This document shows, piece after piece, positions 1,461 through 58,857 of a DNA stretch of 64,000 nt. A program made the position numbers and the translations under genes. A model generated the notes under the pieces. That model saw only the letters and a program-made list of their open reading frames with translations. It had not been told where the DNA came from and did no database searches. The stretch spans positions 124,001 to 188,000 of the forward strand of contig NZ_SJZI01000046.1 in NCBI RefSeq assembly GCF_004337505.1, written 5' to 3'. Every line of letters begins with the position of its first letter. Position 1 is the stretch's first letter. The DNA is from Flaviaestuariibacter flavus. GTDB lineage: Bacteria > Bacteroidota > Bacteroidia > Chitinophagales > Chitinophagaceae.

Positions 1461-1655
1461 AATATTGAATAACGATCAAGGAATATCGAATAATGAAATA
1501 GCGAAGCCCCCGCCGATGGCGGGGGCTTCGCGTAAACAATAATCAATATTCAATGATCAATATTCAAGTGGGATAGCTCATAACCTTTAGCACTGATAAT
1601 GAACGTTGAATATTCCCTTCAACTTTCATTATTCCTTGATCGATATTCGATATTC
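1461..1655. repeat. Word-repeat inverted element (AATATCG vocabulary) around a terminator
   Basis: Between the convergent envC-like and bshA genes. The left arm (1461-1500) is built from GAATATTGAATAACGATCAA-type words. The right part (1537-1572 and 1608-1655) carries the reverse complement, with TTTCATTATTC followed by CTTGATCGATATTCGATATT matching the left arm after an 8-base deletion. A GC-rich terminator hairpin lies between the arms. Same vocabulary as 2834-2948, 19757-19820 and 49009-49118. Confidence 0.8.
1501..1531. terminator. Bidirectional hairpin between envC-like gene and bshA
   Basis: A 14-bp perfect stem, GCGAAGCCCCCGCC, a GAT loop and its complement. It lacks a long T-run but sits between two convergent gene ends, so it probably serves both strands. 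Confidence 0.6.
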
Positions 1656-2791
1656 TACACCGCCAGCTCCTTGCTCATCACATCATCATACAACTGCTCA
1701 TAGGTAGGAATGATGTTGTGAATGTCGAAGTGGTTGGCGTGCTCGGCGGCATCTTTCTTGAATTGCTGGAGGCGCTCGTCGTCTTGCAGTATTTCTACGG
1801 CACGGCGGCTCATGGTGTCGATGTCGCCGATAGCGCCCATATACCCGGTCTTGCCGTCGATCATGATCTCACCGAGGCCGCCGGCATTGGTGGAGATCAC
1901 GGGTACACCGGCTGCCATGGCTTCGAGCGCGGCGAGTCCGAAGGACTCATATTCCGAGGTGAGGAGGAAAAGGTCGGCAATGGCGAGGATATCTTCCATC
2001 TGTTCCTGCTTGCCCACGAAGCGGATCTCGTCGCACACCCCAAGCTCGCGGCTGAGGCCTTCTGCGGTGGCGCGTTCCGGCCCGTCGCCCACGAAGAGCA
2101 GCTTGGCGGGGATCTGCTTCAGCACGTTGGCGAAGATGTGCACCACGTCCTGCACGCGCTTCACCTTGCGGAAGTTGGAGGCATGCAGCAGGATGCGCTC
2201 GTTGTTGGGCGCGATCACTTTGCGGAAAGCATCAATGGGCTTGCGCTGGAAGCGGGCCACATCCACGAAGTTGTGAATAACGTGTATCGGCTTGGTGATA
2301 TTGAAGTTGCGGAAGGTCTCGTCGCGCAGGTTTTGCGAAACCGCTGTGATGGCATCGCTCTGGTTGATCGAAAACGTGACCACAGGCGCGTACATTTTAT
2401 CGCGGCCCACAAGCGTGATGTCGGTGCCGTGGAGGGTGGTGATCACCGGCACGTGGATGCCTTCCTGCGCCAGTATCTGCCGGGCCATATAAGCGGCCGA
2501 GGCATGCGGGATGGCATAGTGCACATGGAGCAGCTGCAGGTGGTTGTTCTTGATCACGTCTACCATGGTACTGGCCAGGGCCGTCTCATAAGGCGGGTAG
2601 TCGAAGAGCGGGTAGGTAGGCACCTGCACTTCGTGGTAGAATATGTTGGGGATGAAGCCGGTGAGCCGCACCGGTTGCTGGTAGGTGATAAAGTGCACCT
2701 GGTGTCCTTTCTGCGCCAGCGCCTTGCCCAGCTCGGTGGCCAGCACGCCGGAGCCGCCGAAGGTGGGATAGCAAACAATTCCGATCCGCAT
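1655..2791 (-). CDS. bshA: N-acetyl-alpha-D-glucosaminyl L-malate synthase (bacillithiol pathway)
   Basis: A GT4-family glycosyltransferase of 378 residues that joins GlcNAc from UDP-GlcNAc to L-malate, the first step of bacillithiol synthesis in the cytosol. Visible family marks are the N-terminal MRIGIVCYPTFGGSG, the TTLHGTDITLVG motif, the HASNFRKVKR loop, and the GT4 donor-site segment TSEYESFGLAALEAMAAGVP. The start chosen (2791) is the family-typical MRIGIVC; an ATG five codons upstream (2806) is equally open and lies 7 nt after a TACCTTCG box (2814-2821), so a five-residue longer protein is possible. Bacillithiol use fits the bacillithiol-era redox genes near 41-44 kb. No other bsh gene is in the window. 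Confidence 0.93.
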   Translation of the reverse strand: MRIGIVCYPTFGGSGVLATELGKALAQKGHQVHFITYQQPVRLTGFIPNIFYHEVQVPTYPLFDYPPYETALASTMVDVIKNNHLQLLHVHYAIPHASAAYMARQILAQEGIHVPVITTLHGTDITLVGRDKMYAPVVTFSINQSDAITAVSQNLRDETFRNFNITKPIHVIHNFVDVARFQRKPIDAFRKVIAPNNERILLHASNFRKVKRVQDVVHIFANVLKQIPAKLLFVGDGPERATAEGLSRELGVCDEIRFVGKQEQMEDILAIADLFLLTSEYESFGLAALEAMAAGVPVISTNAGGLGEIMIDGKTGYMGAIGDIDTMSRRAVEILQDDERLQQFKKDAAEHANHFDIHNIIPTYEQLYDDVMSKELAV

Positions 2792-2813
2792 GGGGGCTTT
2801 TTCCATTTGGCTT

Positions 2814-2821
2814 CGAAGGTA
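2814..2821 (-). promoter_or_regulatory. TAnnTTTG-like -7 box of bshA
   Basis: On the minus strand reads TACCTTCG, 7 nt before the ATG at 2806 and 22 nt before the ATG at 2791. Confidence 0.45.
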
Positions 2822-2833
2822 CACCCGGGTGCA

Positions 2834-2948
2834 AGGAATATTGAATATCGATTACATGAATATCGAATATCGGTGGAGAACCGGTATGCAGGTGGCGGGC
2901 TTCCTTTCGCCGATATTCGTTATTCGATATTCGTTATTCGATATTTTT
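2834..2948. repeat. Word-repeat inverted element (AATATCG vocabulary)
   Basis: Lies between the divergent bshA and M28 peptidase genes. The left arm (2834-2872) has GGAATATTGAATATCG and GAATATCGAATATCGG words; the right arm (2910-2947) is CGATATTCGTTATTCGATAT and repeats. The right arm runs straight into the -7 box of the next gene, so it forms part of its promoter region. Confidence 0.78.
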
Positions 2949-2949
2949 A
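2942..2949 (+). promoter_or_regulatory. -7 box of M28 peptidase gene, 4 nt from ATG
   Basis: TATTTTTA, one mismatch to TAnnTTTG, followed by exactly four bases and the ATG at 2954. Implies a leaderless or near-leaderless transcript. Confidence 0.5.
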
Positions 2950-2953
2950 GCTC

Positions 2954-4345
2954 ATGAAGCGTACCCTTTCCTTCCTGGCCGGCCTCCTGATCGCCGGCGC
3001 AGCAGCTGCTCAAAACGTCGACTCTCTTTTCATCCGCCGGCTTGCCGACGAGATCCTCGAGAACAGCCGTGCCTACGAGAACCTGCGGCAACTCACCAAG
3101 GGTGTCGGCGGCCGTCTTGCCGGCTCTCCGGGGATGGTGAAGGCCGAAGCCTGGGGCCAGCGGGCCCTCCAGGAAGCCGGCGCCGGCCGGGTGTGGTTGC
3201 AGGAATGTATGGTGCCGCACTGGGTGCGCGGCGGCTACGACATCTTCCAGGCCGAACGGCTTACGGCCAACGATGGCAAAAACCGCAAGTGGAGCACGCG
3301 CCGCCTCTCCGCGATCGCTTTGGGTAACTCGCTCGCCTCCAACGGCGCGCGCCGGGCGCCGGTGCTGCTGGTGCACGACTTTGCCGAGCTGGAGGCGAAG
3401 AAGGATTCCGTAGCGGGAAAGATTGTTTTCTTCAACTATAAGTTCAACCCCCGTTATGTGCACACCTTCGAGGCCTACCGCGACGCCGGTGCCTACCGCG
3501 GGCAGGGCCCGGTGCGCGCCGCGCGCTATGGCGCCGTAGGGGTGGCCATCCGGAGCCTCTCGGAAGGCACCGATAATTTCCCGCACACCGGCACCACGGC
3601 CTCCGGAGACACCGTGAAAACCGTGCCCTCGGTGGCCCTCGGCCTCCGCGACGCCGACTGGCTCGACAGCGCCATCCGCTCGGGCACGACCGTGTGGGCC
3701 ACGCTCCAGACCTTCGGGCGCTTTCTCCCGGATACGGTCGGTCACAACGTGATCGGCGAGCTGCGGGGCTCCGAGTTTCCCGACCAGATCATCACGATCG
3801 GCGGCCACCTCGATAGCTGGGACCCCGCCGAGGGCGCCCACGACGACGGCGCCGGCGTGGTGCATACCATCGAGGTGCTTCGTGCTTTCAAGGCCCTGGG
3901 CTACCAGCCGAAGCGAACGATCCGCTTCGTGTTGTTTGCCAACGAAGAAAACGGGCTGCGCGGCGGCCGCAAATACGCCGAAGAGGCGAAAGCGAAAGGC
4001 GAGCAGCACATCTTCGCGCTCGAGAGCGACGAAGGCGGCTTTACGCCGCGCGGCTTTGGCCTGAGCGCGCCAGATGCACCGTTCCAGAAGTTTCTTTCCT
4101 GGCAGCCGCTGCTGGCACCCTATGGCGCTTCTGAATTCCTGCGCGGCGGCGGCGGCTCCGACATCGGCCCCCTCGGCCAGCAGCTCAAAACGCCGACCTG
4201 TGGCTTTGTACCCGACTCCCAGCGCTACTTCGACGTACACCACGCAGCCAACGATGTGTTTGAAAACGTCAACAAGCGCGAGCTGGAGCTCGGTGCCGTC
4301 AACATCGCGGCGTTGATCTACCTCGTGGATAAATACGGGCTTTAG
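2954..4345 (+). CDS. Secreted M28-family zinc aminopeptidase/carboxypeptidase
   Basis: 463 residues with a clear signal peptide (MKRTLSFLAGLLIAGAAAAQ). The middle region is a PA-type insert and the C-terminal half is an M28 di-zinc peptidase: His in GGHLDSWD (about residue 284), bridging Asp in AHDDGAG, catalytic Glu pair in NEENG (about 331), Asp/Glu in LESDEGG (about 357), and the last His in DVHHAAND (about 427). All expected ligands are present, so it should be active. The layout resembles carboxypeptidase Q-like dipeptide hydrolases. Likely role is peptide scavenging in the periplasm or outside the cell; the substrate cannot be read from the sequence. It is a single-gene unit flanked by word repeats on both sides. 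Confidence 0.9.
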   Translation: MKRTLSFLAGLLIAGAAAAQNVDSLFIRRLADEILENSRAYENLRQLTKGVGGRLAGSPGMVKAEAWGQRALQEAGAGRVWLQECMVPHWVRGGYDIFQAERLTANDGKNRKWSTRRLSAIALGNSLASNGARRAPVLLVHDFAELEAKKDSVAGKIVFFNYKFNPRYVHTFEAYRDAGAYRGQGPVRAARYGAVGVAIRSLSEGTDNFPHTGTTASGDTVKTVPSVALGLRDADWLDSAIRSGTTVWATLQTFGRFLPDTVGHNVIGELRGSEFPDQIITIGGHLDSWDPAEGAHDDGAGVVHTIEVLRAFKALGYQPKRTIRFVLFANEENGLRGGRKYAEEAKAKGEQHIFALESDEGGFTPRGFGLSAPDAPFQKFLSWQPLLAPYGASEFLRGGGGSDIGPLGQQLKTPTCGFVPDSQRYFDVHHAANDVFENVNKRELELGAVNIAALIYLVDKYGL

Positions 4346-4452
4346 GATCTCAGATATCAGATCTCAGATTTGTAGTATGGCGTCATCGAAGTGAGTCAGC
4401 TCATGGTAAATCGCTTCGATCTGAGATCTGACATCTGAGATCGGAGATTTTG
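4345..4452. repeat. Word-repeat inverted element (ATCTCAGAT vocabulary)
   Basis: Left arm from 4345: GATCTCAGATATCAGATCTC. Right arm 4417-4450: GATCTGAGATCTGACATCTG and on. A 45-base spacer separates them. No gene is encoded. Shares its vocabulary with 12024-12066, 16586-16655, 54950-54998 and others. Confidence 0.78.
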
Positions 4453-4492
4453 GTTTGGTCTGCTTTTTTAGGATGTAAGCTTAAACCGAAAT

Positions 4493-4894: not shown

Positions 4895-4898
4895 GCTT

Positions 4899-6355: not shown

Positions 6356-6392
6356 ACGGGAGCGGTTGTGCCGGCAAGATACGCAAACCGGG

Positions 6393-6517
6393 GACGGGAG
6401 AGAAGGAACGCTGATCCCGCAGGGGGGATACGCTGATTGGTTATGATTTAAGCGGATGCTGGTACCGATCCGCGTAAATCATAAGAGATCATAAAGATCT
6501 GCGTTCTTTCTCTCCGC
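6393..6517 (-). repeat. Element C copy 1 (MITE-like, GAGAAAGAACGC ends), inverted orientation
   Basis: Flanked by GAGAGAAGGAACGCTGATC on the left and GATCTGCGTTCTTTCTCTC on the right, which are near-perfect reverse complements. Inside are TTGGTTATGATTTAAGC and AAATCATAAGAGATCATAA, again complementary. The GGGATC marker found at the right end of other copies is on the left here, so this copy is inverted. It fills the gap between the divergent EI24 and glycosylase genes. Confidence 0.72.
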
Positions 6518-7769: not shown

Positions 7770-7798
7770 AAGGTCCCGCTTTGCCGGGACCTTTGTTT
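7770..7798 (+). terminator. Intrinsic terminator after rpsP
   Basis: Stem AAGGTCCCG / CGGGACCTT with a six-base loop and a T-rich tail, 23 bases after the rpsP stop. Confidence 0.7.
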
Positions 7799-7926
7799 AT
7801 TTGTCTATTGGTTAATTGGTCTATTGGTAAAGCGTTTGACGCCAACGTGATCTTCGCAACCCCTCGGACGGACGGAGCAGAAGCGACCTGTACCACTAGA
7901 CCACTAGACTAATAGACCACTAGATT
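7797..7926. repeat. Word-repeat inverted element (TCTATTGGT vocabulary)
   Basis: Left arm 7802-7832 is TCTATTGGTTAATTGGTCTA with further copies; right arm 7890-7926 is CCACTAGACCACTAGACTAA and on, its approximate reverse complement. It separates the rpsP terminator from rimM. The only locus with this vocabulary in the window. Confidence 0.72.
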
Positions 7927-8447: not shown

Positions 8448-8452
8448 GAGCG

Positions 8453-8560
8453 AACAAGAACGCAGATCTTTTATGATTAATAGGTTTTTCGCTGCTCATC
8501 GTATCGGCAAACGATCCTAAAACATCATAACAGATCTGCGTCATCTGCGTTCGTTGTCTT
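8453..8560 (+). repeat. Element C copy 2 (divergent)
   Basis: Begins GAACAAGAACGCAGATC and TTTTATGATTAATAGG, ends CATCATAACAGATCTGCG and ATCTGCGTTCGTTGTC. Same vocabulary and arm order as the other element C copies but lacks the GGGATC hairpin near the right end. Lies between the convergent rimM and DinB-fold genes. Confidence 0.62.
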
Positions 8561-9275: not shown

Positions 9276-9435
9276 AAAACCACAAGAGAACAAGAGAGCG
9301 AGAGAACAAGAGAAAAGGAGAACAAGTGAGCAAGAGAACGCGGGAACAAGAAAACGAGAGCTGGGAGTGATCAATTGTAGCTGAGCTTCGACTTGGCAGC
9401 TCTTCTCGTTCTTTCATCTCACGTTCTTTCGTTCT
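9276..9435. repeat. Word-repeat inverted element (AGAGAACAAG vocabulary)
   Basis: Left arm 9282-9362 is a tandem of AAGAGAACAAGAGAGCGAGA-like words, about eight units of 9-10 bases. Right arm 9400-9438 is CTTCTCGTTCTTTCATCTCA and CGTTCTTTCGTTCTCT, the reverse complement. It lies between the DinB-fold promoter and the 3' end of the Crp-family gene. The repeat has no stops in one minus-strand frame, which creates a false N-terminal extension. Confidence 0.78.
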
Positions 9436-11285: not shown

Positions 11286-12025
11286 TGAATGAGCGCTCCC
11301 TGCTTCTGAAAGATTTAGTGAAGAAAATGCTTGGCCTCCTGCCTTTTGCGGTGACGCAGAACCAGCGCTACGACCGGCAGACCAACGCGATCATCCGCCG
11401 CGTGTGCCGCCGCGCCTCCAATTGCGTGGACGTGGGCACCCACCGTGGCGAGATCCTCGACACCATGCGCCAGGCAGCGCCGGAAGGCACGCATTTCGGC
11501 TTTGAGCCGCTCCCGCATTTCTACGATAAGCTGCAACAGCGCTATGCCGGCGTCGCCGGCATCGAGGTGTTTCCCTATGCGCTTTCGGAAGCACCCGGCG
11601 AAGCTTCCTTCAATCATGTCAAGACCAATCCCGCCTATAGCGGCCTGCAGAAGCGCCGCTACGACCGGCCGCACGAAGAAGATGAAACCATCACCGTGGA
11701 AATGCGCACCCTCGACGAGGTAGTGGGCACCCGCGGCGTACCGATCGCATTGATCAAGATCGACGTGGAGGGCGGCGAGATGGGTGTGCTCCGCGGTGCC
11801 CGCGGCCTGCTGGCCCGCGACAAGCCCGTGGTCATCTTCGAAGCCGGCATCGGCGGCAGCGATGTGTACGGCACCACTCCCGGGATGCTCTTCGACTACC
11901 TGTCCGGCTTCGGGTACCGGGTATCCCTGATGGGTCGCTACCTGAAGGGGCAGCCCCCCTTCTCGCGCCAAGACTTCGCCGCCAGCTTCAACGGTGGCCA
12001 CGATTACTACTTCATCGCATACTGA
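11285..12025 (+). CDS. FkbM-family SAM-dependent methyltransferase
   Basis: 246 residues. The SAM site reads CVDVGTHRGEILDTM, then HFGFEPLPHFYDKL, a mid-domain VFPYALSEAPGEASF, and the FkbM-type ALIKIDVEGGEMGVLRGA followed by KPVVIFEAG. FkbM enzymes methylate hydroxyl groups of sugars, polyketides or other small molecules; the acceptor here cannot be deduced. It overlaps the dinB stop by one base, an odd partnership with a polymerase, probably a chance operon. Confidence 0.85.
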   Translation: MNERSLLLKDLVKKMLGLLPFAVTQNQRYDRQTNAIIRRVCRRASNCVDVGTHRGEILDTMRQAAPEGTHFGFEPLPHFYDKLQQRYAGVAGIEVFPYALSEAPGEASFNHVKTNPAYSGLQKRRYDRPHEEDETITVEMRTLDEVVGTRGVPIALIKIDVEGGEMGVLRGARGLLARDKPVVIFEAGIGGSDVYGTTPGMLFDYLSGFGYRVSLMGRYLKGQPPFSRQDFAASFNGGHDYYFIAY

Positions 12026-12066
12026 TCTCAGAGGTCAGATGTCAGATCCGAGATCCGAGATCGAAA
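12024..12066. repeat. Word array (GATCTCAG/GATCCGAG vocabulary)
   Basis: TGATCTCAGAGGTCAGATGT and CAGATCCGAGATCCGAGATC between the FkbM gene and the M20 peptidase promoter. One-sided, although the words themselves are partly self-complementary. Confidence 0.6.
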
Positions 12067-13484: not shown

Positions 13485-13485
13485 T

Positions 13486-13608
13486 CGTGACCCGTCAATC
13501 GTGAGCCGTGAGCGGCTGACGCACCTTTATAAAAGAAAGGATGCCTTTGGCATCCTTTCTTTTTGCCGCGCAATGCGGGCTCACGGTTGACGGCTCACGA
13601 TATCACTT
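13486..13608. repeat. Word-repeat inverted element (CGTGAGCCGTGAGC vocabulary) around a terminator
   Basis: Left arm 13487-13515: GTGACCCGTCAATCGTGAGC and CGTGAGCGG. Right arm 13578-13605: GGGCTCACGGTTGACGGCTC and ACGATATCAC, the reverse complement. A 15-bp terminator hairpin (13531-13564) sits between them. Confidence 0.78.
13531..13564. terminator. Bidirectional intrinsic terminator between convergent genes
   Basis: AAAAGAAAGGATGCC / GGCATCCTTTCTTTT with A-run on one side and T-run on the other, serving the M20 peptidase gene and the opposing secreted-protein gene. Confidence 0.8.
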
Positions 13609-15910: not shown

Positions 15911-16585
15911 ATGCACATCGATATTCTGACAGTTCTGCCCGAATTATTGGAGAGCCCCCTTGGCCACTCCATCATGAAGCGCGCCCAGGACAAGGGCCAC
16001 CTCACCGTGCAGGTGCACCAGCTGCGCAAGTGGGCGGTGAACGCCTATGGCCAGGTGGACGACTACCAATACGGTGGCGGCGCCGGCATGGTAATGATGT
16101 GCGAGCCCCTGGTGGCCGCCATCGAGGAGCTCCAGAAAGAGCGGACCTACGATGCCGTTATTTATATGACGCCCGACGGCGAACGCCTTGAGCAGCGTAC
16201 CGCCAACCGGCTTTCGCTGAAAGAAAACCTGCTCATTATCTGCGGTCACTACAAGGGCATCGACCAGCGGGTGCGCGATCACTTCGTCACCCACGAGATC
16301 TCGATCGGCGACTATGTGCTGAGCGGCGGCGAGCTGGCCGCGGCGGTGCTGGTGGACGCCATCGGCCGCCTGTTGCCGGGCGTGCTCAACGACGAGACCT
16401 CCGCCCTCACCGACTCTTTCCAGGACAACCTGCTGGCGCCTCCCGTTTACACCCGCCCCGCGGAGTTCCGCGACTGGAAAGTACCCGACATCCTGCTGAG
16501 CGGAGATCCCAAAAAGGTAGAAGACTGGCGCCATGAGCAGGCCCTGAAGCGCACCCAGGAACGCCGCCCCGACCTGCTTCAATAA
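15911..16585 (+). CDS. trmD: tRNA (guanine-N1-)-methyltransferase
   Basis: 224 residues, SPOUT-fold enzyme making m1G37 in tRNAs, essential for reading-frame maintenance. Visible marks are [18 protein letters not shown], the [14 protein letters not shown] segment, [14 protein letters not shown], and the trefoil-knot motif [16 protein letters not shown], followed by the C-terminal DNA/tRNA-gripping part PEFRD-like [20 protein letters not shown]. Start at the ATG at 15911; an ATG six codons earlier lies in the repeat. Unusually for many bacteria, trmD is not next to rimM and rplS here. Confidence 0.95.
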
Positions 16586-16655
16586 TGTTTGATGTCAGAT
16601 GTTAGATCTCAGAGCTGCGGCACCGCCTCGCGCCAGATCCGACATCCGAGATCGT
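16586..16655. repeat. Word-repeat inverted element (GATGTCAGATG vocabulary)
   Basis: Left arm TGATGTCAGATGTTAGATCT and CAGAG; right arm CAGATCCGACATCCGAGATC, its reverse complement, with a short spacer. Followed at once by the terminator at 16661. Confidence 0.7.
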
Positions 16656-17832: not shown

Positions 17833-18495
17833 CTAGTTCTGGATTTTGGGGCCGAAAGCAAGGTCCCCTGCGTCGCCGAGGCCGGGGACAATGTATCCCT
17901 TTGCGGTCAGCTCGTCGTCGATGGTGCCGCACCAGATCACCGCTTCGGGGATATGACGTTGCACATGTTCGATGCCCACCGAGCAGGCGATGGCAGCCAC
18001 GATGTGGATGTTCTTGGGCTCGCCTTCCTCGCGCAGGTATTGCACGGTCTTCACCAGCGAGGCGCCGGTGGCCAGCATCGGGTCGGAGAGGATGAGGATG
18101 CGGTTTTCGATATCGGGCGAGGAATAGTACTCGAGTGCAATTTCAAAAGTGCCGTCGGTGTTGTGCTTGCGGTAGGCCGAAACAAAAGCGCAGTCGGCCT
18201 TGTCGAAGTAGTTGAGCAGGCCCTGGTGCAGGGGCAGGCCGGCACGCAGGATGGTGGTGAGCACGGGTTGCTCCGACAGAACGGTAGCCGAAGCGGTGCC
18301 GAGTGAAGTGGTCACCTCGATGTCGCGGGTGGGAAGGATCTTCGAAATCTCGTAGGCTGCGATCTCGCCGATGCGCTCCAGGTTGCGCCGGAAGCGCATC
18401 CGGTCTTTCTGAATCTCCGTGTCGCGCAGCTCCGCAACCCAATTGCTGACCAGCGAATGCTCCTGGCTTAAGTTAATTACCATTTCCGTTGACAT
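17833..18495 (-). CDS. upp: Uracil phosphoribosyltransferase
   Basis: 220 residues. It converts uracil plus PRPP to UMP in pyrimidine salvage. The PRPP-binding loop is ILSDPMLATGASLVKTV, the flexible loop TILRAGLPLHQGL, and the uracil-binding C-terminus YIVPGLGDAGDLAFG. The ATG at 18495 is chosen over 18504 because the latter falls inside a perfect TAGTTTTG promoter box (18502-18509), which leaves six bases to the chosen start. Confidence 0.96.
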   Translation of the reverse strand: MSTEMVINLSQEHSLVSNWVAELRDTEIQKDRMRFRRNLERIGEIAAYEISKILPTRDIEVTTSLGTASATVLSEQPVLTTILRAGLPLHQGLLNYFDKADCAFVSAYRKHNTDGTFEIALEYYSSPDIENRILILSDPMLATGASLVKTVQYLREEGEPKNIHIVAAIACSVGIEHVQRHIPEAVIWCGTIDDELTAKGYIVPGLGDAGDLAFGPKIQN

Positions 18496-18501
18496 AGCCG
18501 C

Positions 18502-18509
18502 CAAAACTA
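18502..18509 (-). promoter_or_regulatory. TAnnTTTG -7 box of upp
   Basis: Minus-strand TAGTTTTG, perfect match, 6 nt before the ATG at 18495; decides the start. Confidence 0.6.
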
Positions 18510-18518
18510 AGGAAGAAT

Positions 18519-18640
18519 GCGGTAATGTGGTAATGCGGTAATGTGGTAAACCGATTACATGGCATCCCGGGAGTCGAGCCGTCGGGTAGCGGCTGTTGTA
18601 TCACCGCATTATCACATTACCGCATTACCACATTACTTTA
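18519..18640. repeat. Word-repeat inverted element (GGTAATGTGGTAATGC vocabulary)
   Basis: Left arm 18519-18551: GCGGTAATGTGGTAATGCGG and TAATGTGGTAAA. Right arm 18600-18636: ATCACCGCATTATCACATTA and CCGCATTACCACATTAC. Near-perfect complement, between the divergent upp and anmK genes. Confidence 0.82.
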
Positions 18641-18665
18641 GCGCCTTCATCCCACTTCGTAACTT

Positions 18666-19757
18666 ATGCTTTACCGCGCCATTGGCCTCATGAGCGGCTC
18701 TTCGCTCGACGGGCTCGACATCGTCTTTGCCGAATTCCACGAAAACGCCGGGCACTGGTCCTGGGAGATCAAGGCCGCCGACTGCTATCCTTATGACGGC
18801 GACTGGACAGCGCGTCTCCGCGGAGCCACGGAGCTGACGGCGCGCGACTACCTGCTGCTGCATGCCGAATACGGGCATTACCTCGGCGCTGCCGTCAACC
18901 GCTTCATCGAAGAGCAGGGCCTGCACTACCAGGTAGCGCTCGTTTCCTCGCACGGGCATACCTCTTTTCACCTGCCGGCGCAAAAGATGACCGGGCAGCT
19001 CGGCGACGGTGCCGCCATTGCCGCCGCTACCGGCCTGCCGGTGGTGAGCGACCTGCGGGCGCTGGATGTTGCCCTCGGCGGCCAGGGAGCCCCCATCGTG
19101 CCGATGGGAGAGGCCCTGCTGTTTACCGACTTCCGGATCTTCCTCAACCTGGGCGGCATCGCCAATATCGCCATCCACAACGGCCCGCCCACGGCTTTCG
19201 ACGTATGCCCCGCCAACCGGGTGCTCAACGCGCTGGCACAAAAAGAAGGAAAAGACTATGACGCGGACGGTTCACTTGCCGCGTCCGGAAAGGTCAATGA
19301 GGCATTGCTGCAGCAGCTCGACGCCCTCGATTTCTACGGGCAGCCTGCCCCGAAATCGCTGGCCAACGACTTCGGCACAGGTACCGTGCTGCCGCTGATT
19401 GAGGCGGCCGGCCTTTCCACCGCCGACGCGCTGCGCACCTATGTGGAGCATATCGCCGGCCAGGTGGCACGTGCCCTTACCGGTAACCTGCCCGAAGGCC
19501 TTCTTTCGCGCCGTATGCTGGTGACGGGTGGTGGCGCCTTCAACGGCTTCCTTGTAGAGCGGCTCAAGGCGCATCTCGAAAAGGCGGGTATTGAACTGGT
19601 GGTTCCCGACGAAAAGCTGGTCGCTTATAAAGAGGCCCTCATCATGGCCCTGCTCGGCGTGCTGCGCTGGCGCGAAGAAAGCACGGTGCGGGCTGCGGCT
19701 ACCGGTGCACGGCGTGACAGTGTGGGTGGTGCGATGTGGATGGGGCAGGAAGCATAG
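18666..19757 (+). CDS. anmK: Anhydro-N-acetylmuramic acid kinase
   Basis: 363 residues, ASKHA-fold kinase that opens and phosphorylates anhydroMurNAc from recycled peptidoglycan to give MurNAc-6-phosphate. Marks are the N-terminal GLMSGSSLDGLDIVFAEF, the SSHGHTSFHLPAQ segment, FLNLGGIANIAI, CPANRVLNALA, and the C-terminal phosphate-binding LVTGGGAFNGFLVERL. It is complete. It converges with the DUF2382 genes at a long hairpin. Confidence 0.95.
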   Translation: MLYRAIGLMSGSSLDGLDIVFAEFHENAGHWSWEIKAADCYPYDGDWTARLRGATELTARDYLLLHAEYGHYLGAAVNRFIEEQGLHYQVALVSSHGHTSFHLPAQKMTGQLGDGAAIAAATGLPVVSDLRALDVALGGQGAPIVPMGEALLFTDFRIFLNLGGIANIAIHNGPPTAFDVCPANRVLNALAQKEGKDYDADGSLAASGKVNEALLQQLDALDFYGQPAPKSLANDFGTGTVLPLIEAAGLSTADALRTYVEHIAGQVARALTGNLPEGLLSRRMLVTGGGAFNGFLVERLKAHLEKAGIELVVPDEKLVAYKEALIMALLGVLRWREESTVRAAATGARRDSVGGAMWMGQEA

Positions 19758-19820
19758 GGAATATCGAATATCGAATATCGAATATCGAATATCGAATAAC
19801 GAATATTGAATATCGGGTAT
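19757..19820. repeat. Tandem word array (GAATATCGAATATC), one-sided
   Basis: Five tandem AATATCG units followed by AATAACGAATATTGAATATC, directly after the anmK stop. No reverse-complement arm follows; a separate 17-bp hairpin lies 30 bases further. Confidence 0.75.
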
Positions 19821-29811: not shown

Positions 29812-29943
29812 GTCATCCTGAGCTTGCCGAAGGATGCCCCCGTGTAGCGCCGGTGTCGCCGTTGGCATTCGGGTCGGGGACCCTGAACCGCCGTTGGCGG
29901 GGCAGCCTTCGCCTGGTTCAGGGCCCTCCCGGGAGCGGGAGGT
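29812..29943. repeat. Intergenic hairpins downstream of the GH31 gene
   Basis: Contains CATCCTGAGCTTGCCGAAGG followed by ATG (an imperfect palindrome with CATCCT/AGGATG ends, of a kind repeated in many genomes), then a larger nested hairpin with CCCTGAACC and GGTTCAGGG arms at about 29880-29930. No open frame of note. Confidence 0.5.
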
Positions 29944-30475
29944 AAGAGCAAATGATCACAGAGCAAATGAATACATGATCAAATGAACAAATCCACATCA
30001 TGTAATCATTTGCTCATGTATTCTGTGATCATTTGCTCTTCGATCCCTTCCGTGAAACGGCGCCCGGCCATTCGGACGCGGGAGAATGCAGAATACATGA
30101 TCACAGAGCAAATGAATACATGATCAAATGAACAAATCCACATCATGTAATCATTTGCTCCTGTATTCTGTGATCATGTAATCCGCGATCCGAACCGCGA
30201 AATGTCGCCCGGCCATACGGACGTGGGGAATGCAGAATACATGATCACAGAGCAAATGAATACATGATCAAATGAACAAATCCACATCATGTAATCATTT
30301 GCTCATGTATTCTGTGATCATTTGCTCTTCGATCCCTTCCGCGAAATGTCGCCCGGCCATACGGACGTGGGGAATGCAGAATACATGATCACAGAGCAAA
30401 TGAATACATGATCAAATGATCAAATCCACATCATGTAATCATTTGCTCCTGTATTCTGTGATCATGTAATCTTCG
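29944..30475. repeat. Four tandem copies of a ~144-bp inverted-repeat unit (CAAATGATCA vocabulary)
   Basis: The marker ATGATCACAGAGCAAATGAA begins at 29952, 30097, 30241 and 30385, giving periods of 145, 144 and 144 bases. Each unit has a left arm (ATGATCACAGAGCAAATGAA, TACATGATCAAATGAACAAA), a short turn around CCACATCATG, and a right arm (TAATCATTTGCTC, TGTATTCTGTGATCAT) that is its reverse complement, then a constant GC-rich spacer with CGCCCGGCCATACGGACG. No protein-coding frame makes sense. The last unit loses its spacer and leads into the next repeat. Confidence 0.88.
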
Positions 30476-30497
30476 ATCGCGCTTCTGGTGATGTTCC

Positions 30498-30790
30498 GCC
30501 CCGGCAATGGCGTCGCCACCGGTCGCCGGTGGCCGGCGATAACGAAAACGCCCATTTTTGATCTTCCCGGTGGCCGGCAATAACGAAAACGCCCGTTTTT
30601 GATCTTCCCGGTGGCCGGCAATAACGAAAACGCCCGTTTTTGATCTTCCCGGTGGCCGGCGATAACGAAAACGCCCGTTTTTGATCTTCCCGGCAGCCGG
30701 CGACACCAAAAACGCCCGTTTCCAGCCTTGCGGGAATTCCGCGGCCCTGAAAACGGGCGTTTTCGGGTTCCCGGGATTTCCGCGCCCCCG
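30498..30790. repeat. Tandem 41-bp GC-rich repeat with an inverted end (AACGCCCGTTTTTGATC)
   Basis: AACGAAAACGCCC starts at 30541, 30582, 30623 and 30663 (periods 41, 41, 40), each followed by TTTTTGATCTTCCCGG and TGGCCGGCAATAACG. A degenerate fifth copy is at about 30704. After it, GAAAACGGGCGTTTTCGGG (about 30748) runs in the opposite sense. Open frames across it are only repeat translations. Confidence 0.85.
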
Positions 30791-40179: not shown

Positions 40180-40320
40180 TGTGCTGGTGGGTTAATGTGC
40201 TGGTGTGCTAACGGAGGCAAGCAGTAAAACAAAACTTTTGGTATAGTTGCGTCCATTGCCGGTTTAGCCAGACCTTTTGACCATTTAGCACATTAGCACA
40301 CCAGCACACCAGCACAATAC
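40180..40320. repeat. Word-repeat inverted element (GTGTGCTGG vocabulary)
   Basis: Left arm GTGTGCTGGTGGGTTAATGT and GCTGGTGTGCTAACGG (40180-40217); right arm 40282-40318: TTTAGCACATTAGCACACCA and GCACACCAGCACAATAC. Spacer holds no terminator. Shares vocabulary with 50520-50638. Confidence 0.82.
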
Positions 40321-41035: not shown

Positions 41036-41037
41036 TA

Positions 41038-41064
41038 CGAAGGCCCCGCGAAGCGGGGCCTTCG
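41038..41064 (+). terminator. GC hairpin after the RluA-family gene
   Basis: Perfect stem CGAAGGCCCCGC gaa GCGGGGCCTTCG immediately after the stop; no T-run follows. Confidence 0.55.
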
Positions 41065-41189
41065 GCGTTATTGCGAGCGCAGCGAAGCAAACTCCACGAT
41101 CTTAAGACTGGTCTTACTCCGAAAGGATTTCAAAATGATATCCCGTTCAAGCGCTTTGCGACTGACCTCCGTAACATGGTACAGGGCAT

Positions 41190-42903: not shown

Positions 42904-42996
42904 CTTAGAATCTGATAATCTGGAATCTGAAATCTGGAATGTATGGCTATGAGCGGCCGCAGCAGATTCCAGATTGCGAGATTGGAGATTCAAAGA
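42904..42996. repeat. Word-repeat inverted element (AATCTGGAATCTG vocabulary)
   Basis: Left arm TTAGAATCTGATAATCTGGA and ATCTGAAATCTGGAATG (42904-42940); right arm 42962-42991: AGATTCCAGATTGCGAGATT and GGAGATTCAAAG. It overlaps the last codons of the CDF gene, whose stop lies at 42990. Confidence 0.72.
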
Positions 42997-44787: not shown

Positions 44788-44873
44788 GACAATTTGGAGG
44801 TTCAAGAGGTTCAAAAAGGTTCAAGAGGTTCGTAAATGCGGTAACCAACCTCCTGAGCCTCTTGAACTTTTAT
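44788..44873. repeat. Word-repeat inverted element (GGTTCAAGAGGTTC vocabulary)
   Basis: Left arm 44799-44832: GGAGGTTCAAGAGGTTCAAA and AAGGTTCAAGAGGTTCG. Right arm 44845-44873: AACCAACCTCCTGAGCCTCT and TGAACTTTT. Between the SOD promoter and the 3' end of the permease gene. Confidence 0.75.
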
Positions 44874-48997: not shown

Positions 48998-49008
48998 TAG
49001 CGCCGGAA

Positions 49009-49118
49009 TATCAAATAACGAATTTCGAATATCGGTTTGCCGGCCTCCATGATGGGGGGCAAGCCTGCCTGTAAGGCCGATATTCGTCATTCAATATTCG
49101 TTATTCGATATTCTTCTA
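49009..49118. repeat. Word-repeat inverted element (AATATCG vocabulary)
   Basis: Left arm 49009-49034: GGAATATCAAATAACGAATT and TCGAATATCGG. Right arm 49078-49115: CCGATATTCGTCATTCAATA and TTCGTTATTCGATATTC. Just upstream of the ffh promoter. Confidence 0.8.
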
Positions 49119-50519: not shown

Positions 50520-50638
50520 TGTGCTAGTGTGCTGGTTTGCTAATGTGCTAAAAGAAAGCCGCTCTGCAGGGGCGGCTTTCTTTTGCTGGTAGGTCAAAGG
50601 TATTAGCACACTAGCACAGGAACCCACTAGCACATTCT
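50520..50638. repeat. Word-repeat inverted element (GTGTGCTAG vocabulary) around a terminator
   Basis: Left arm 50520-50551: GTGTGCTAGTGTGCTGGTTT and GCTAATGTGCTA. Right arm 50601-50636: TTAGCACACTAGCACAGGAA and CCCACTAGCACATT. The ffh terminator (50551-50584) is between the arms. Confidence 0.82.
50551..50584 (+). terminator. Intrinsic terminator of ffh
   Basis: AAAGAAAGCCGC with loop TCTGCAGGG and GCGGCTTTCTTTT; 32 bases after the stop. Confidence 0.82.
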
Positions 50639-54570: not shown

Positions 54571-54581
54571 CGCCCATCGTT

Positions 54582-54950: not shown

Positions 54951-54998
54951 TCGCAGATGTCAGATCTGAGATAGTTTGATCCGACATCTGAGAGGTAT
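54950..54998. repeat. Word-repeat inverted element (CAGATGTCAGATC vocabulary)
   Basis: Left arm CGCAGATGTCAGATCTGAGA; right arm GATCCGACATCTGAGAGG. A short copy of the ATCTCAGAT-type element with a 10-base spacer. Confidence 0.65.
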
Positions 54999-55133
54999 TA
55001 GCTCTTCCATAGGATAATTTTACCATATTTTAAAGCCTGTTCCTCCACGGAACGGGCCCATTGGGCGAAAACGCAGCTTCCGGGCTGCTGGGAAAGGGAA
55101 CTTTGCGGGTCAACCTTACCGTAAAGCACCGAC

Positions 55134-55583: not shown

Positions 55584-55601
55584 CCTTTAACTGCTTTTGC
55601 C

Positions 55602-57209
55602 ATGCGTGCCCTGCTCTCCTTACTGCTGCTTGTTTTTAACTGTGCCGTATTCGGCCAGACACCCCCGGCCTGGAGCTCGATGCCCGATGTCCGCCCGACG
55701 ATCTTCCTGGATTTTGACGGCCATACTGTTACCGGCACCCAATGGAACACTGCCGGCCCCGTGGTATGCGGTCCTGCGAACATCACCCAGGCGCAGATCG
55801 CCGAGATCTACGAGCGGATTGCCGAAGACTACCGGCCTTTCGCGGTCAACGTTACCACCGACTCCACCAAATACTGGGCAGCGCCGGCCAAGCAGCGGAT
55901 GCGGGTCATCTTCACCATCAGCAACAGCTGGTACAGCAACGGCGTCGGCGGTGTTTCGTATACCAACTCCTTTACCTGGGGCGACAACACACCCAACTTC
56001 GTTTTTACCACGCTGCTGCAATACAATACCAAGTGGCTGGCCGAAGCCGGCGCGCACGAGGTAGGTCATACGCTTGGCCTCCGCCACCAGGCATCCTACA
56101 ACAGCTCCTGCGGCAAGATCACCGACTACTACGCCGGCACCGGATCGGGTGAGATCGGCTGGGCACCCATCATGGGCGTTGGCTATTACCAGAACATGAC
56201 CACCTGGAACCTCGGACCGAATTCGCTTGGCTGCAACAACATGCAGAGCGATGTGGATGTGATTACGCGGACGCTGAACGGCGTGCCGGTGAACGGCATC
56301 GCCTACCGCACCGACGATGTCCCGGAGACGATGGCGGAAGCGGCAAACACCACTTTTGATGCCGACACCTTCCGCATCCAGGGCGTGATTGAGCGGGCTG
56401 CCGACCGCGACCTTTTCAAGTTTCGCCTCGACCGCGGCGCCCGCTTCCGCCTCGATGCCGTACCCTTTAACCTGGGCTCGGGTAATGTGGGCTCCGACCT
56501 CGACATCCAGGTGCTGCTCCTTGATGCCACCGGCACGCAGCTTGGCTCGTACAACCCCGCGCCGCTGCTCAACTCGGTGATCGATACGGCGCTCGCCACG
56601 GGCGACTATTACCTGATGATTGACGGCAAAGGCAACCAGTTTGCGCCCGAATACGGCTCTCTCGGCTCTTACGACCTGAAGGCTTCCGCAACGCCCTTCA
56701 ACGTGCTGCCGCTCTACCAGCTGACCCTGCACGGCAGCAGTGCCGGCGGGCGTCATACCCTGAACTGGAAAGTAGTGGCCGATGAAGTGCTGACGGAGCA
56801 GGTGCTCGAAGCCAGCGACGACGGCCGCAACTTTTACGTGCTGGCCACCCCGCCCCCGGGCACCACCAGCTATACGTATACCGTTGCTGAAGGGGCCCGC
56901 CGCCAATACCGTATTAAAGTCGTTTTCAACAACGGCCGTTATTACTATTCGAAGGCCGTGCTGCTGGCTGCCGCTGCAGGCGCCACGCCGCAACTGCTGC
57001 GCACGGTAGCGCAGGGAGGCTCGCTGGCGGTGCAATCGCCGGTCGCCGGCCGCTACCAGGTGGGCAACGCGCTCGGCCAGGTAATGGCTGCCGGTGTGCT
57101 GCCGCAAGGAAGCAGCAACCTGCCGCTGCCCCGCCTCGCCGCCGGCGCCTACTGGGTGCGCTTTACGGTAGGCGGCTCGGAGACCGTACAGAAGTTTATC
57201 CAGCCCTGA
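55602..57209 (+). CDS. Secreted metzincin-type metalloprotease with T9SS-like C-terminal domain
   Basis: 535 residues. Signal peptide MRALLSLLLLVFNCAVFGQ. The zinc site is HEVGHTLGLRH (about 150-160), with a possible Met-turn in WAPIMGVGYYQN, so it is a reprolysin/matrixin-like metzincin. Residues about 240-370 contain a beta-sandwich (ADRDLFKFRLDRGARFRLDAV), then a region DGRNFYVLATPPPGTTSYTYTV and a last 80-residue domain ending VRFTVGGSETVQKFIQP that resembles a type A sorting tail. It is probably released or anchored by type IX secretion, consistent with porT nearby. Confidence 0.88.
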   Translation: MRALLSLLLLVFNCAVFGQTPPAWSSMPDVRPTIFLDFDGHTVTGTQWNTAGPVVCGPANITQAQIAEIYERIAEDYRPFAVNVTTDSTKYWAAPAKQRMRVIFTISNSWYSNGVGGVSYTNSFTWGDNTPNFVFTTLLQYNTKWLAEAGAHEVGHTLGLRHQASYNSSCGKITDYYAGTGSGEIGWAPIMGVGYYQNMTTWNLGPNSLGCNNMQSDVDVITRTLNGVPVNGIAYRTDDVPETMAEAANTTFDADTFRIQGVIERAADRDLFKFRLDRGARFRLDAVPFNLGSGNVGSDLDIQVLLLDATGTQLGSYNPAPLLNSVIDTALATGDYYLMIDGKGNQFAPEYGSLGSYDLKASATPFNVLPLYQLTLHGSSAGGRHTLNWKVVADEVLTEQVLEASDDGRNFYVLATPPPGTTSYTYTVAEGARRQYRIKVVFNNGRYYYSKAVLLAAAAGATPQLLRTVAQGGSLAVQSPVAGRYQVGNALGQVMAAGVLPQGSSNLPLPRLAAGAYWVRFTVGGSETVQKFIQP

Positions 57210-57261
57210 CCAGTACCGCCTTTTGCACAGATTTCCCACAAACCTGTTCCCTGCAGGAGTG

Positions 57262-57287
57262 AACCGGGCCCTACGGCCCGGTTTTTT
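57262..57287 (+). terminator. Intrinsic terminator after the metalloprotease gene
   Basis: AACCGGGCC ctac GGCCCGGTT followed by TTTTT. Confidence 0.88.
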
Positions 57288-57312
57288 CGTATATTGAGGA
57301 AATATCATACGT

Positions 57313-57786
57313 ATGCGTTGGAGACGTTTTAACGGGGCCACCATCGAGTTGCCGATCTACCAGGCGGTGGAGGAGACCATCCGCCGGGAGACCGAAAACG
57401 GCAGCAAGCTGAAGGTGTGCATCGGCACCGACTCACAGGTAAAAGGGAAAGACACCGAGTTTGCCACGGTGATCGTTTTCCTGCGGGAAGGACACGGCGG
57501 CTTTATGTTCATTCACAACGACAAGACCGTGCAATCGTACACCATCAAGGAGCGGATGCTCGTGGAGGTGGCGAAAAGCATCGAGATTGCCTACGAGTTG
57601 TGCAACCTGTTTACCCAGTATAATGTGGACATGGAGGTGCATGCCGACATCAACACCAACCCCAGCTTCAAGAGCAACGACGCGCTGCGCGAGGCGATGG
57701 GTTATATCCTGGGCATGGGCTTCGCATTCAAGGCGAAGCCGGAAGCCTTTGCTTCGAGCTGTTGCGCCGACAAGATGGTGAACTGA
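57313..57786 (+). CDS. YkuK/DUF458-family RNase H-like protein
   Basis: 157 residues. LKVCIGTDSQVKGKDTEFATVI contains the first acidic residue of the RNase H fold, KERMLVEVAKSIEIAYEL a helix, and MEVHADINTNPSFKSN the second acidic pair; KAKPEAFASSCCADKMVN is the tail. The YkuK family has an RNase H-like fold but no proven substrate. Its gene is monocistronic between two terminators. Confidence 0.85.
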   Translation: MRWRRFNGATIELPIYQAVEETIRRETENGSKLKVCIGTDSQVKGKDTEFATVIVFLREGHGGFMFIHNDKTVQSYTIKERMLVEVAKSIEIAYELCNLFTQYNVDMEVHADINTNPSFKSNDALREAMGYILGMGFAFKAKPEAFASSCCADKMVN

Positions 57787-57861
57787 CCTGCCTGCTTCCG
57801 GTTTTATGCACGCCGGGAGGCGGGCCTGGGCTTCGTCGGCAATAAGATTTGGAAGGGGAAG

Positions 57862-58050
57862 AAGGTTTTTGAACCGCAAAGAGAAAAAGAAAAGAAGCGA
57901 TACGCGAAGATGTTATGTAAAAGGTCCCGCAGGCGGGACCTTTTCAATTGTATTCCTTAGCGCAACGCTTATTCAACTTCTTTTCTTCGCGGTGAAAAAC
58001 TCTTCTTCTCCTTTTCTCCCTTATTTCACTTTTTTCTTTTCTTCTTTCTC
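57862..58050. repeat. Word-repeat inverted element (AAAGAGAAAAAGAAAAG vocabulary) around a terminator
   Basis: Left arm AACCGCAAAGAGAAAAAGAA and AAGAAGCGATACGCGAAG (57869-57908); right arm 57977-58015: CTTCTTTTCTTCGCGGTGAA and ACTCTTCTTCTCCTTTTCTC. A hairpin AAAAGGTCCCGC / GCGGGACCTTTT (57919-57944) is between. The last codons of engB lie inside the right arm. Confidence 0.68.
57919..57944. terminator. Bidirectional intrinsic terminator between YkuK and engB genes
   Basis: AAAAGGTCCCGC ag GCGGGACCTTTT, with A and T runs, between convergent genes. Confidence 0.8.
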
Positions 58051-58656
58051 GTACCGCTCATTCAGTTCATGGATGAACGAAAGTATCTGCCGCACACCGG
58101 TGCGTTTTTCTGCGGAGGTAACGAAATACGGCGGCGGCTCCTCCCATTTTTCCAGCAGGGTATCGATAAAGCGGCGCACGTTGGCGGCCACCTCGCGCTG
58201 CGTGGTTTTGTCCGACTTGGTAAAGGCCAGTGCAAAAGGCACCTGCCATTCACCCAGCTGGTTGATGAATTCGAGGTCGAGGTCCTGCGGCTCATGGCGC
58301 GAGTCGATCAGCACAAAGAGAAACACGAGGCTTTCGCGCTTACGGATATAGTTCTCGATCATCTTCGACCATTCCTTGCGGAGGGCTTGCGAGCGCTTGG
58401 CGAAGCCATAGCCGGGAAGATCCACGAGGTACCAGGGGCGACCGTCGCGGGGCGTGATGGTAAAGTGGTTGATCAGCTGGGTCTTGCCCGGTGTACGCGA
58501 CACCTTGGCCAGCTCTTTTTTGCCCGTCAGCGCGTTGATCAGCGAGCTCTTGCCCACGTTCGATCGCCCGATGAAGGCATACTCCGGGCGGTCGCCTTTG
58601 GGACACAGGTCGATGGACGGCGAGCTAATGAGGTATTCGGCTTTGACGATCTCCAT
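58021..58656 (-). CDS. engB: Ribosome biogenesis GTP-binding protein YsxC/EngB
   Basis: 211 residues, small essential GTPase acting in 50S assembly. Motifs are G1 FIGRSNVGKSSLINAL, G2 SRTPGKTQLINHF, G3 LVDLPGYGFAK and G4 ALAFTKSDK. A basic tail (EKEEKKKVK) ends it. The start at 58656 is chosen over longer frames because a perfect TATCTTTG box lies exactly four bases before the ATG. The 3' end runs into repeat DNA. Confidence 0.95.
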   Translation of the reverse strand: MEIVKAEYLISSPSIDLCPKGDRPEYAFIGRSNVGKSSLINALTGKKELAKVSRTPGKTQLINHFTITPRDGRPWYLVDLPGYGFAKRSQALRKEWSKMIENYIRKRESLVFLFVLIDSRHEPQDLDLEFINQLGEWQVPFALAFTKSDKTTQREVAANVRRFIDTLLEKWEEPPPYFVTSAEKRTGVRQILSFIHELNERYEKEEKKKVK

Positions 58657-58660
58657 GCCG

Positions 58661-58668
58661 CAAAGATA
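58661..58668 (-). promoter_or_regulatory. TAnnTTTG -7 box of engB, 4 nt from ATG
   Basis: Minus-strand TATCTTTG, perfect match, then GCGG-side four bases and the ATG at 58656. Confidence 0.62.
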
Positions 58669-58681
58669 GCCGCCCGCGGCG

Positions 58682-58857
58682 GGTAAGAGAAAGAACGCAG
58701 ATTTGTTATGATTTCTAGGATGAGGGCAGCCTTCGATTCCGTTCTTGCTGACAAGTGTCCGGGTGCGTTTGTTGAACCGTGACCCTTGTCCGCAAATCAT
58801 AACCAATCATAATAAATCGGCGTATCCGGCTTGCGGGATCTGCGTTCTTTCTCTCCA
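58682..58857 (+). repeat. Element C copy 5
   Basis: Starts GGTAAGAGAAAGAACGCAGA and TTTGTTATGATTTCTAGGAT, ends AAATCATAACCAATCATAAT, TCCGGCTTGCGGGATC and TGCGTTCTTTCTCTCC. It sits between the divergent promoters of engB and ubiE, so it could influence both. Confidence 0.75.

Follow-up and report, generated by a model that had tools for sequence, protein, structure and literature searches.

We analysed a 64,000-nucleotide stretch of the Flaviaestuariibacter flavus genome (G000:C46:124001-188000, hereafter the window), in which gaps between genes hold tandem arrays of short repeated words together with arms of their reverse complement. We conclude that these arrays are dispersed gap brackets, that is, paired tandem arrays of 7- or 8-bp words with a fixed inward polarity, and that they are of a broad bacterial heptamer-repeat kind. 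The genome holding the window (G000) comprises 3.96 Mb in 52 contigs and is 86% complete; its promoter-like motifs point to a probable place in the Bacteroidota. Gene boundaries were taken from our own simple coding model and not from curated annotation, and the window was tested over 43 gaps of 40-700 bp. A call of inverted arms required an interior over 25 bp and a score of 15 or more that exceeded those of 40 dinucleotide-shuffled versions of the gap; this score is blind to abutting arms with almost no interior. Inverted arms were found in 14 of the 43 gaps and a significant tandem word array in 14; both were present in 8 gaps and at least one in 20.

In the coordinates that follow, left arms lie on the plus strand and right arms on the minus strand, and the figures after a left arm are its inverted-arm score and the highest score among the shuffles. 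GAATATC and GAATAAC words form the left arm (1461..1497; 23, shuffle 17) of a convergent gap whose right arm (1618..1654) abuts the stop of the minus-strand gene. GAATATC words also bracket a divergent gap (2837..2873; 22, shuffle 11; right arm 2910..2945) and the gap upstream of ffh (49006..49046; 20, shuffle 11), where the right arm at 49074..49113 lies just upstream of a promoter-like TATCTTTG. An array of eight GAATATC copies on the plus strand at 19759..19815 (Tandem Repeats Finder, TRF; 92%) is a single arm. GATCTCA words begin immediately past a stop codon at 4346..4369 (22, shuffle 12) and face a right arm at 4419..4442. GATGTCA words form the pairs 16590..16613 (TRF, 16585-16613, and direct reading) with 16635..16653 (direct reading), and 54951..54972 with 54979..54994 (both by direct reading). 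At 12026..12063, also past a stop codon, direct reading shows GATNTC words in both orientations, abutting and with no single strand. The arrays at 12026, 16586 and 54951 are plain by eye yet fall under the cut-offs used.

Other gaps are written in other words. TATTGGTC words occupy 7798..7832 (19, shuffle 11) and the right arm 7888..7922, while an array of AGAACAAG words (9282..9360, plus strand, TRF, 9.9 copies of period 8) stands opposite a minus-strand arm of GTTCTTT words at 9401..9435 (direct reading). CGTGAGC and CGTCAAT words form the left arm 13485..13507 (19, shuffle 12), with the right arm at 13578..13600 and, by direct reading, a terminator-like hairpin between the two. In a divergent gap, the left arm of TAATGTGG and TAATGCGG words (18522..18549) is 96% complementary to the right arm (18609..18636). 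Further pairs are formed by TGTGCTGG and TGTGCTAA words (40180..40211; 20, shuffle 14; right arm 40285..40316), by AATCTGG words (42909..42929; 15, shuffle 10; right arm 42963..42983), by GAGGTTCAA words (44797..44831, found by TRF; 13, shuffle 11, and so under the cut-off of 15; right arm 44847..44867) and, immediately past the ffh stop, by TGTGCTAG words (50520..50551; 20, shuffle 12; right arm 50603..50634). At 29937..30478 a whole hairpin of ATGATCAC and ATGAATAC words together with its interior makes up a 144-bp unit in 3.7 tandem copies, which has no single strand (TRF score 912; sequence read). Directly past it, at 30526-30743, a 41-bp unit (CCGGTGGCCGGCGATAACGAAAACGCCCG..) is present in 4.8 tandem copies and adjoins a large gene.

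A sequence-only reading of the window had described repeated words in gaps with reverse-complement arms, and had held that the arms remain alike though the words drift; the arrays are indeed present where it placed them, and both descriptions stand. Among the gaps that it listed, the one at 57862 belongs to a longer, ACCGCGAAG-type family which is not a pure word array (left arm 57853..57909; 28, shuffle 13; right arm 57956..58013), the array listed at 19757 has one arm only, and that listed at 12024 has both orientations with almost no interior between them.

Genome-wide counts were made on a sample of G000 consisting of the window and a further 800 kb (864 kb, about a fifth of the genome). 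In this sample inverted arms beat all their shuffles in 114 of 484 gaps, where chance would give at most about 1 in 41 (12 of 484); tandem words were present in 113 gaps and either feature in 170. Inverted arms were observed in 26 of 81 convergent, 17 of 96 divergent and 71 of 307 tandem gaps, which supports the earlier remark that the arrays are not only terminators. They also occur in the relatives sampled, in 14 of 98 gaps of G147, 39 of 253 of G151 and 5 of 71 of G149. The period of the 113 tandem gaps was 7 in 52, 8 in 28, 16 in 13 and 14 in 8. Arrays of at least three words lie outside called genes in 87 cases and inside in 3 (n=90). The median distance of arrays is 11 bp from 3' ends and 43 bp from 5' ends of genes. 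Pairing exceeds chance, with 14 GATNTC pairs against 1.6 expected and 7 TAATG pairs against 0.3.

The vocabularies had been thought specific to single loci, which was wrong. The GAATATC-type pattern GAATATCGAATATCGAATATCG, with up to three mismatches, has 152 overlapping matches in G000 and its reversed pattern none, and the TAATGNG-type pattern TAATGNGNTAATGNGNTAATG has 113 (against 42 in G151) and its reversed pattern one. Further words recurring in G000 are GATNTCN, TGTGCTNN, GGTTCTNN, CGTNANN, ATGANTAC and TATTGGTC. About ten vocabularies recur genome-wide, and each of the three compared species has its own dialect. Across a comparison set of 18 genus genomes, among them G147, G149, G151, G155 and G160, TAATGNG is abundant in G000 and G151 and has 0-5 matches in each other genome. 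Its main words are TAATGCGG, TAATGTGG and TAATGTGA in G000 (CGG, TGG and TGA) and TAATGGGG, TAATGTGC and TAATGTGG in G151 (GGG, TGC and TGG). The leading CGTGA words are CGTCAAT and CGTGAAT in G000, CGTGAGC and CGTCAGC in G151, and CGTGAGG, CGTGAAG and CGTCAGG in G147; the leading AGTTT word is AGTTTGT in G147 and AGTTTAC in G151, with none in the G000 sample. When samples of the same size were compared, a G000 array had its closest counterpart in its own genome in 81 cases and in the other in 31, with 10 ties (n=122), and a G151 array in 57 and 9 cases, with 2 ties (n=68). The larger homogenisation of words is genome-wide, which the sequence-only reading had missed.

Polarity is almost always fixed, the words pointing inward from both gene edges. 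With each vocabulary read in one direction, a forward left arm with a reverse right arm is denoted FR and the opposite arrangement RF. Among 57 cases in G000, G151 and G147 in which a gap holds a vocabulary in both orientations, 53 were FR, 1 was RF and 3 were complex, a count which is weakened by the fact that the reading directions were set after the left arms had been seen and that GAATA and CAATATT overlap, so that a gap may count twice. For this reason polarity was also learnt on half of the gaps and applied to those held out. Agreement in G000 was 92% for 10-mers (about 980 occurrences) and 76% for 8-mers (about 3250), and in G151 79% for 8-mers (about 148) and 78% for 10-mers (about 10), the k-mers including those of element families. 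Single arrays conform as well: 53 of 64 in forward orientation lie in the left half of the gap, against 13 of 76 in reverse orientation.

Relatives show more than random DNA at the same gaps, as the sequence-only reading would have it, and orthologous gaps sometimes hold the same word skeleton in a different dialect. The clearest slot is 18484-18665, which has conserved flanks and holds TAATGCGG and TAATGTGG words here, TAATGTGC and TAATCTGC in G147, and TAATGGGG and TAATGTGC in G151. The gaps adjoining ffh in G147, G149, G151 and G155 carry, by eye, inverted words of other vocabularies. Arrays were present in both orthologous gaps in 10 of 43 cases for G147 and G151 (4.3 expected), in 19 of 50 for G000 and G151 (13.9 expected, a weak excess) and in 5 of 33 for G000 and G147 (4.2 expected, no excess). 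The orthologue was among the best 10% of matches between genomes in 16 of 34 pairs, so that a slot often keeps its vocabulary, and some slots recur between species pairs. The gap at 8448-8559 holds three unrelated families in three species, and the array at 4346 has no counterpart in G147 and G151, from which it follows that no given gap needs brackets. The array at 19758 is likewise missing from the orthologous gaps of G147 and G151, and the gap at 58657, which here holds a ACGCAGATT..TTATGATT element, is 34 bp long and empty in G147.

That element, with its left end at 58686..58702 (plus strand) and its right end at 58838..58854 (minus strand), belongs to a separate family. A ACGCAGAT..TTATGATT family, again not of pure word arrays, is present in the window gaps at 6397, 8448 and 58686. 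The ACGCAGATT..TTATGATT family and a CGTC-type repetitive extragenic palindrome (REP) are true element families in G000. Pairs of the CGTC-type REP (GTCATTGCGAGCGGAGCGAAGCAAACTCC) on another contig (G000:C42, e.g. L006, 6813-7126) have homologous interiors, 75-79 bp long in 13 of 17; a half copy lies at 41036-41189 of the window, and the family behaves as a normal element. We also noticed a family of nested palindromes, CCTCACCCCCGGCCCCTCTCC, which surrounds a repeated hairpin, GCAAAGAGCGGATGCC..GGCATCCGCTCTTT, at G000:C8 40021-40259, 47780-47978 and 289719-290002 (L067, L079).

An exact scan of named genomes for GATGTCNx4 gave at least 116 stretches, distributed over Bacteroidota, Planctomycetota, Acidobacteria, Verrucomicrobia, Patescibacteria, Proteobacteria and others. 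Among the 80 of the 116 loci that were listed, the clusters were FR in 15 cases (five of them from G162), RF in 2, complex in 2 and single in 74, and other vocabularies were hardly found there (GAAGTC, 5 arrays against 1 reversed; GAATA, 1 against 1; others 0-1). In G162, a Planctomycetota metagenome-assembled genome (MGR_bin356), GATGTCNx3 with at most one mismatch has 211 matches against 77 for the reversed pattern; among the 100 of the 211 places listed, we counted 22 FR pairs, no RF pair and 8 unpaired clusters. At 20 distinct places in G162 near-identical arms enclose interiors of up to about 120 bp, some pairs having none at all, and no two match among the 14 distinct interiors of at least 25 bp. 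As judged from rough gene calls, the nearest gene edge is at most about 50 bp away for most of these arms, and a few arms fall within a called gene. The reversed heptamer CTGTAGN is itself frequent in G162 (the 77 matches), which suggests that this genome uses one or more further vocabularies. A universal lexicon was rejected, and no special status is claimed for the GATGTC word, since the reversed pattern is common in G162 and GATGTCNx3 is matched in only 4 of 148 genomes of a phylum sample (the reversed pattern in 1).

In one secretion operon of G162, four places carry brackets, written in three vocabularies (GGGTCCG at two of them, GAGCTAC and GATGTCC at the others). In G165, which has 68-70% DNA identity to G162, genes overlap at two of these four places, and an AGTGCGG bracket stands at a junction where the G162 genes overlap. 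A bracket with its interior is thus present where the relative has no gap, and brackets therefore come and go inside operons. A dialect shift at an orthologous Planctomycetota gap was ruled out, since the brackets of the two genomes lie at different operon junctions, which is turnover. The GGGTCCG arrays of G162 match G167 exactly over about 30 bases.

Our best guess, which is tentative, is that DNA-level slippage acts together with copying of words from arm to arm and across the genome, by a putative copying agent. Slippage by one or two words at a time would make arrays longer and alter them, as the periods of 7 and 8 and of 14 and 16, and the likeness of neighbouring words, suggest. Facing arms may then swap words through fold-back copying in the hairpin of the pair, for which one of the four vocabularies tested speaks. 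Words would further spread between loci until the whole genome drifts into its own dialect, a pattern that is seen in the genomes compared. Old slots would persist while their spelling follows the genome, as some slots within one genus do, and brackets would be gained or lost at gaps, in keeping with their presence and absence in relatives. Neighbouring words are more alike than expected in TAATG arrays (p 0.027 at a distance of one word and 0.008 at two) and in GATNTC arrays (0 of 1000 permutations at one word, p 0.073 at two), and letters are linked within TAATG words (p 6e-4). The like neighbours in these two of three vocabularies, together with the linked letters, suggest that words are copied as units. 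The two GATNTC arms of a gap share a sub-dialect (14 pairs, 0.75 against a null of -0.22, 0 of 2000 permutations). Loss of the hairpin nuclease SbcCD was considered as a possible permissive cause: SbcD (TIGR00619) scored over the cut-off in none of the 18 genus genomes and in 2 of 22 genomes of a second set (three genomes repeated), yet array matches are numerous in one of these two, G167. Should a copying or writing process of this sort exist, concerted evolution in bacterial genomes would have a source that has gone unrecognised.

Several observations weigh against this proposal. A shared sub-dialect or word order between arms was not seen for TAATG (7 pairs, p 0.41), TGTGCT (3 pairs, p 0.34) or CAATATT (3 pairs, p 1.0). 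Between two secretion genes of G162 (L275, G162:C4), the arms are each uniform and differ from each other by one letter, GAGCTAC against GAGCTGC, as if each had expanded by itself, which speaks against arm copying there. The earlier suggestion that one arm is copied or corrected from the other is accordingly supported only in part, for GATNTC and not for TAATG, TGTGCT, CAATATT or the GAGCTAC/GAGCTGC gap. Arms within a locus are only modestly closer to each other than to arms of the same vocabulary at other loci (mean 0.65 against 0.54), and the own arm beat every other locus in 33 of 136 cases, though the loci had been picked for matching arms. The better match of an array within its own genome than with its orthologue, found in 31 of 34 cases, is biased, as a maximum is compared with one value. 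In GAATA arrays neighbouring words are no more alike than expected (p 0.94). Slippage and fold-back copying alone leave the shared vocabularies and the fixed polarity unexplained; we know of no enzyme or intermediate that copies 8-bp words between distant loci, and the arms seem too short to serve ordinary homologous recombination.

The main rival, which we rate as unlikely, is that the words are recognition sites. One or more DNA-binding proteins would bind them at both sides of a gap, perhaps with looping, and the dialect would track the binding preference, in the way that DNA uptake words follow their receptor. This would agree with a polarity that is fixed for paired and single arrays alike, with arms that are kept while the interiors lose visible similarity, and with the persistence of some slots in a new dialect. 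However, about ten vocabularies per genome would call for about ten factors, and independent degenerate positions would not give the linked letters found inside words. It is also hard to see on this basis why the same gap should hold three unrelated families (8448) or nothing (4346) in relatives, why the brackets of the secretion operon should stand at different junctions in G162 and G165, and why GATGTCNx3 should occur in so few genomes of the phylum sample. If a binding factor does exist, it marks gene gaps in several phyla.

Next in order, and also unlikely in our view, are non-autonomous mobile elements akin to miniature inverted-repeat transposable elements (MITEs) or REPINs, which would have word arrays as their ends and be moved in trans by a postulated transposase, the dialects being species-specific subfamilies. 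The empty sites in relatives at 4346, 19758 and 58657 are what such elements would leave, as are the secretion-operon brackets of G162 and G165 at places where the other genome has overlapping genes; pairing far above chance and a fixed polarity resembling that of terminal repeats point the same way, and G000 does hold true element families. The interiors tell a different story. Near-identical arms in G162 surround interiors that are unrelated, which argues against a mobile element with a fixed body, and 39 of 58 word-family interiors of at least 35 bp in G000 are without a second match in the 864 kb (19 have one). Array-bearing gaps exceed their array-free orthologues by a median of 63 bp, where the arms measure 73 and the whole unit 144; the excess was closer to the arms than to the unit in 16 of 23 comparisons, some gaps being counted against two relatives, and 41 control gaps gave a median difference of 7. 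Whole-unit insertion as a rule was rejected on this better fit of the arms, a weak argument as some 'array-free' gaps look to hold decayed arrays. Nor are paired arrays longer than single ones (2.73 against 2.96 words, p 0.77; length being a proxy and not identity). Captured filler as the source of the interiors likewise found no support: 2 of 58 G000 interiors match called coding DNA in the 864 kb, and one G162 interior, of the 14 of at least 25 bp, was without a second copy in its genome.

A link to REP-associated tyrosine transposases (RAYTs) had been suggested from the window and was not supported. PF01797 is present in 14 of the 18 genus genomes, with 4 matches in G000. When 21 RAYT loci were read by eye over 330 bp on each side, with no formal test, the genes were mostly adjoined by ordinary short palindromes, which tells against a mobile element moved by them. 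Three of them (L115 in G151, L118 in G147 and L130 in G160) had a word array within this distance, whereas the four in G000 had no such neighbour; three of 21 was not taken as a link, and the RAYT was rejected as the mover. A RAYT-like Y1 transposase gene lies 3.4 kb past the window (G000:C46:191443-191787, L112), near short GTCCCGTGGGGAC-type palindromes.

It is improbable that selection on the RNA maintains the arms, either as hairpins or as bidirectional terminators in which they would be terminator or stability stems. A G+C-rich hairpin with a T-run can be seen by eye inside the interiors at 1505, 13535, 50560 and 57920, and arrays do lie close to gene 3' ends, yet inverted arms also stand in 17 of 96 divergent gaps and are thus not confined to 3' ends. 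G-U and A-C mismatches between arms number 96 and 102 in tandem, 34 and 27 in convergent and 32 and 34 in divergent gaps, and in the lack of asymmetry there is therefore no sign of an RNA stem being kept. Rfam gave no match in the window at gathering scores, and RNA pairing alone predicts neither a shared vocabulary nor a fixed polarity.

A bolder reading, which we regard as a long shot, invokes an enzyme with a short, changeable template, similar to a telomerase or another reverse transcriptase, that would add words to both 3' ends where they face each other across a break or nick in a gap, before it is sealed. Words added at both 3' ends would read inward, and the polarity would therefore be fixed. 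The interior would be whatever lay between or was filled in, and a change of template would change the dialect of the whole genome. If this is true, the writer is a genome-wide sequence-writing system common to several phyla.

Very improbable, finally, are G-quadruplex elements as proposed for the GGGAATC repeats (PMC4692102), which share unit length, pairing and polarity with the present arrays: by eye, the GAATATC, GATNTC, AGTTTGT, CGTGAGC, TGTGCTAG and TAATGCGG arrays are without GGG on either strand, whereas TAATGGGG (main in G151, minor in G000) and the GGGTCCG of G162 could form a quadruplex, and with most vocabularies thus lacking G-runs the explanation cannot be transferred to them. 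Descriptions of bacterial heptamer repeats have so far come with no agreed explanation, and a quadruplex was the reading given to the best-studied example that we found. Multiple vocabularies, dialects, polarity and unrelated interiors remove that as a general reading and make for sharp predictions.

We found no description of multi-vocabulary inverted word arrays in the open-licence literature, surveyed mostly at listing level. Among known repeats, cyanobacterial STRR sequences are likewise dispersed and dominated by 7-nt units. So are the long simple sequence repeats of 5-11 nt (Mrazek 2007, as cited in PMC4679880 and PMC4692102), although inverted pairing, polarity and dialects are not among the features known for them from those accounts. 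The TAACTGA repeats of Beggiatoaceae, Cyanobacteria and Bacteroidetes (MacGregor 2015, PMC4679880) resemble the present arrays in being intergenic heptamers with a patchy, cross-phylum distribution; they differ in being direct repeats that lie mostly near start codons, with mention of one indirect repeat, and in being proposed as translational sites. REPINs and RAYTs (Bertels and Rainey 2011, PMC3116915) and GTAG/CGTC REPs (Di Nocera 2013, PMC3733652) likewise form extragenic inverted doublets, with several families per genome and whole doublets amplified in tandem. However, REPs are palindromes of 20-40 bp and REPINs are tied to RAYT genes, whereas the present arms are tandem words without a palindrome, and the RAYTs here are mostly adjoined by other repeats. 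The BrickBuilt MITE of Porphyromonas gingivalis (PMC4596501) also places tandem units in intergenic elements of a Bacteroidota, but the units are of 23 bp between a leader and a tail, and there is one family.

Closest are the GGGNATC/GGGAATC heptamer arrays of Xanthomonas and Nostoc, described as mostly intergenic and of no known function (Rehm et al. 2015, PMC4692102). They include 70 and 75 inverted pairs in convergent orientation, and 83% lie in the same gene context between two species (PMC4692102). They thus share with the present arrays the 7-bp tandem units, the intergenic position, the inverted pairing in one orientation and, to an extent that varies between species pairs, the conserved gene context. 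The sequence-only reading had found no named family that fits; this stands for the multi-vocabulary case and not for a single vocabulary, for which heptamer repeats with convergent pairs have been published (PMC4692102). The published repeats are of one G-rich type per genome and are discussed as quadruplexes. In the arrays described here there are instead about ten vocabularies, in words of 7 and 8 bp that mostly lack G-runs, and orthologous gaps show the dialects of their species. The GGGAATC heptamer repeat is the nearest known kind, and the present case is a variant of it.

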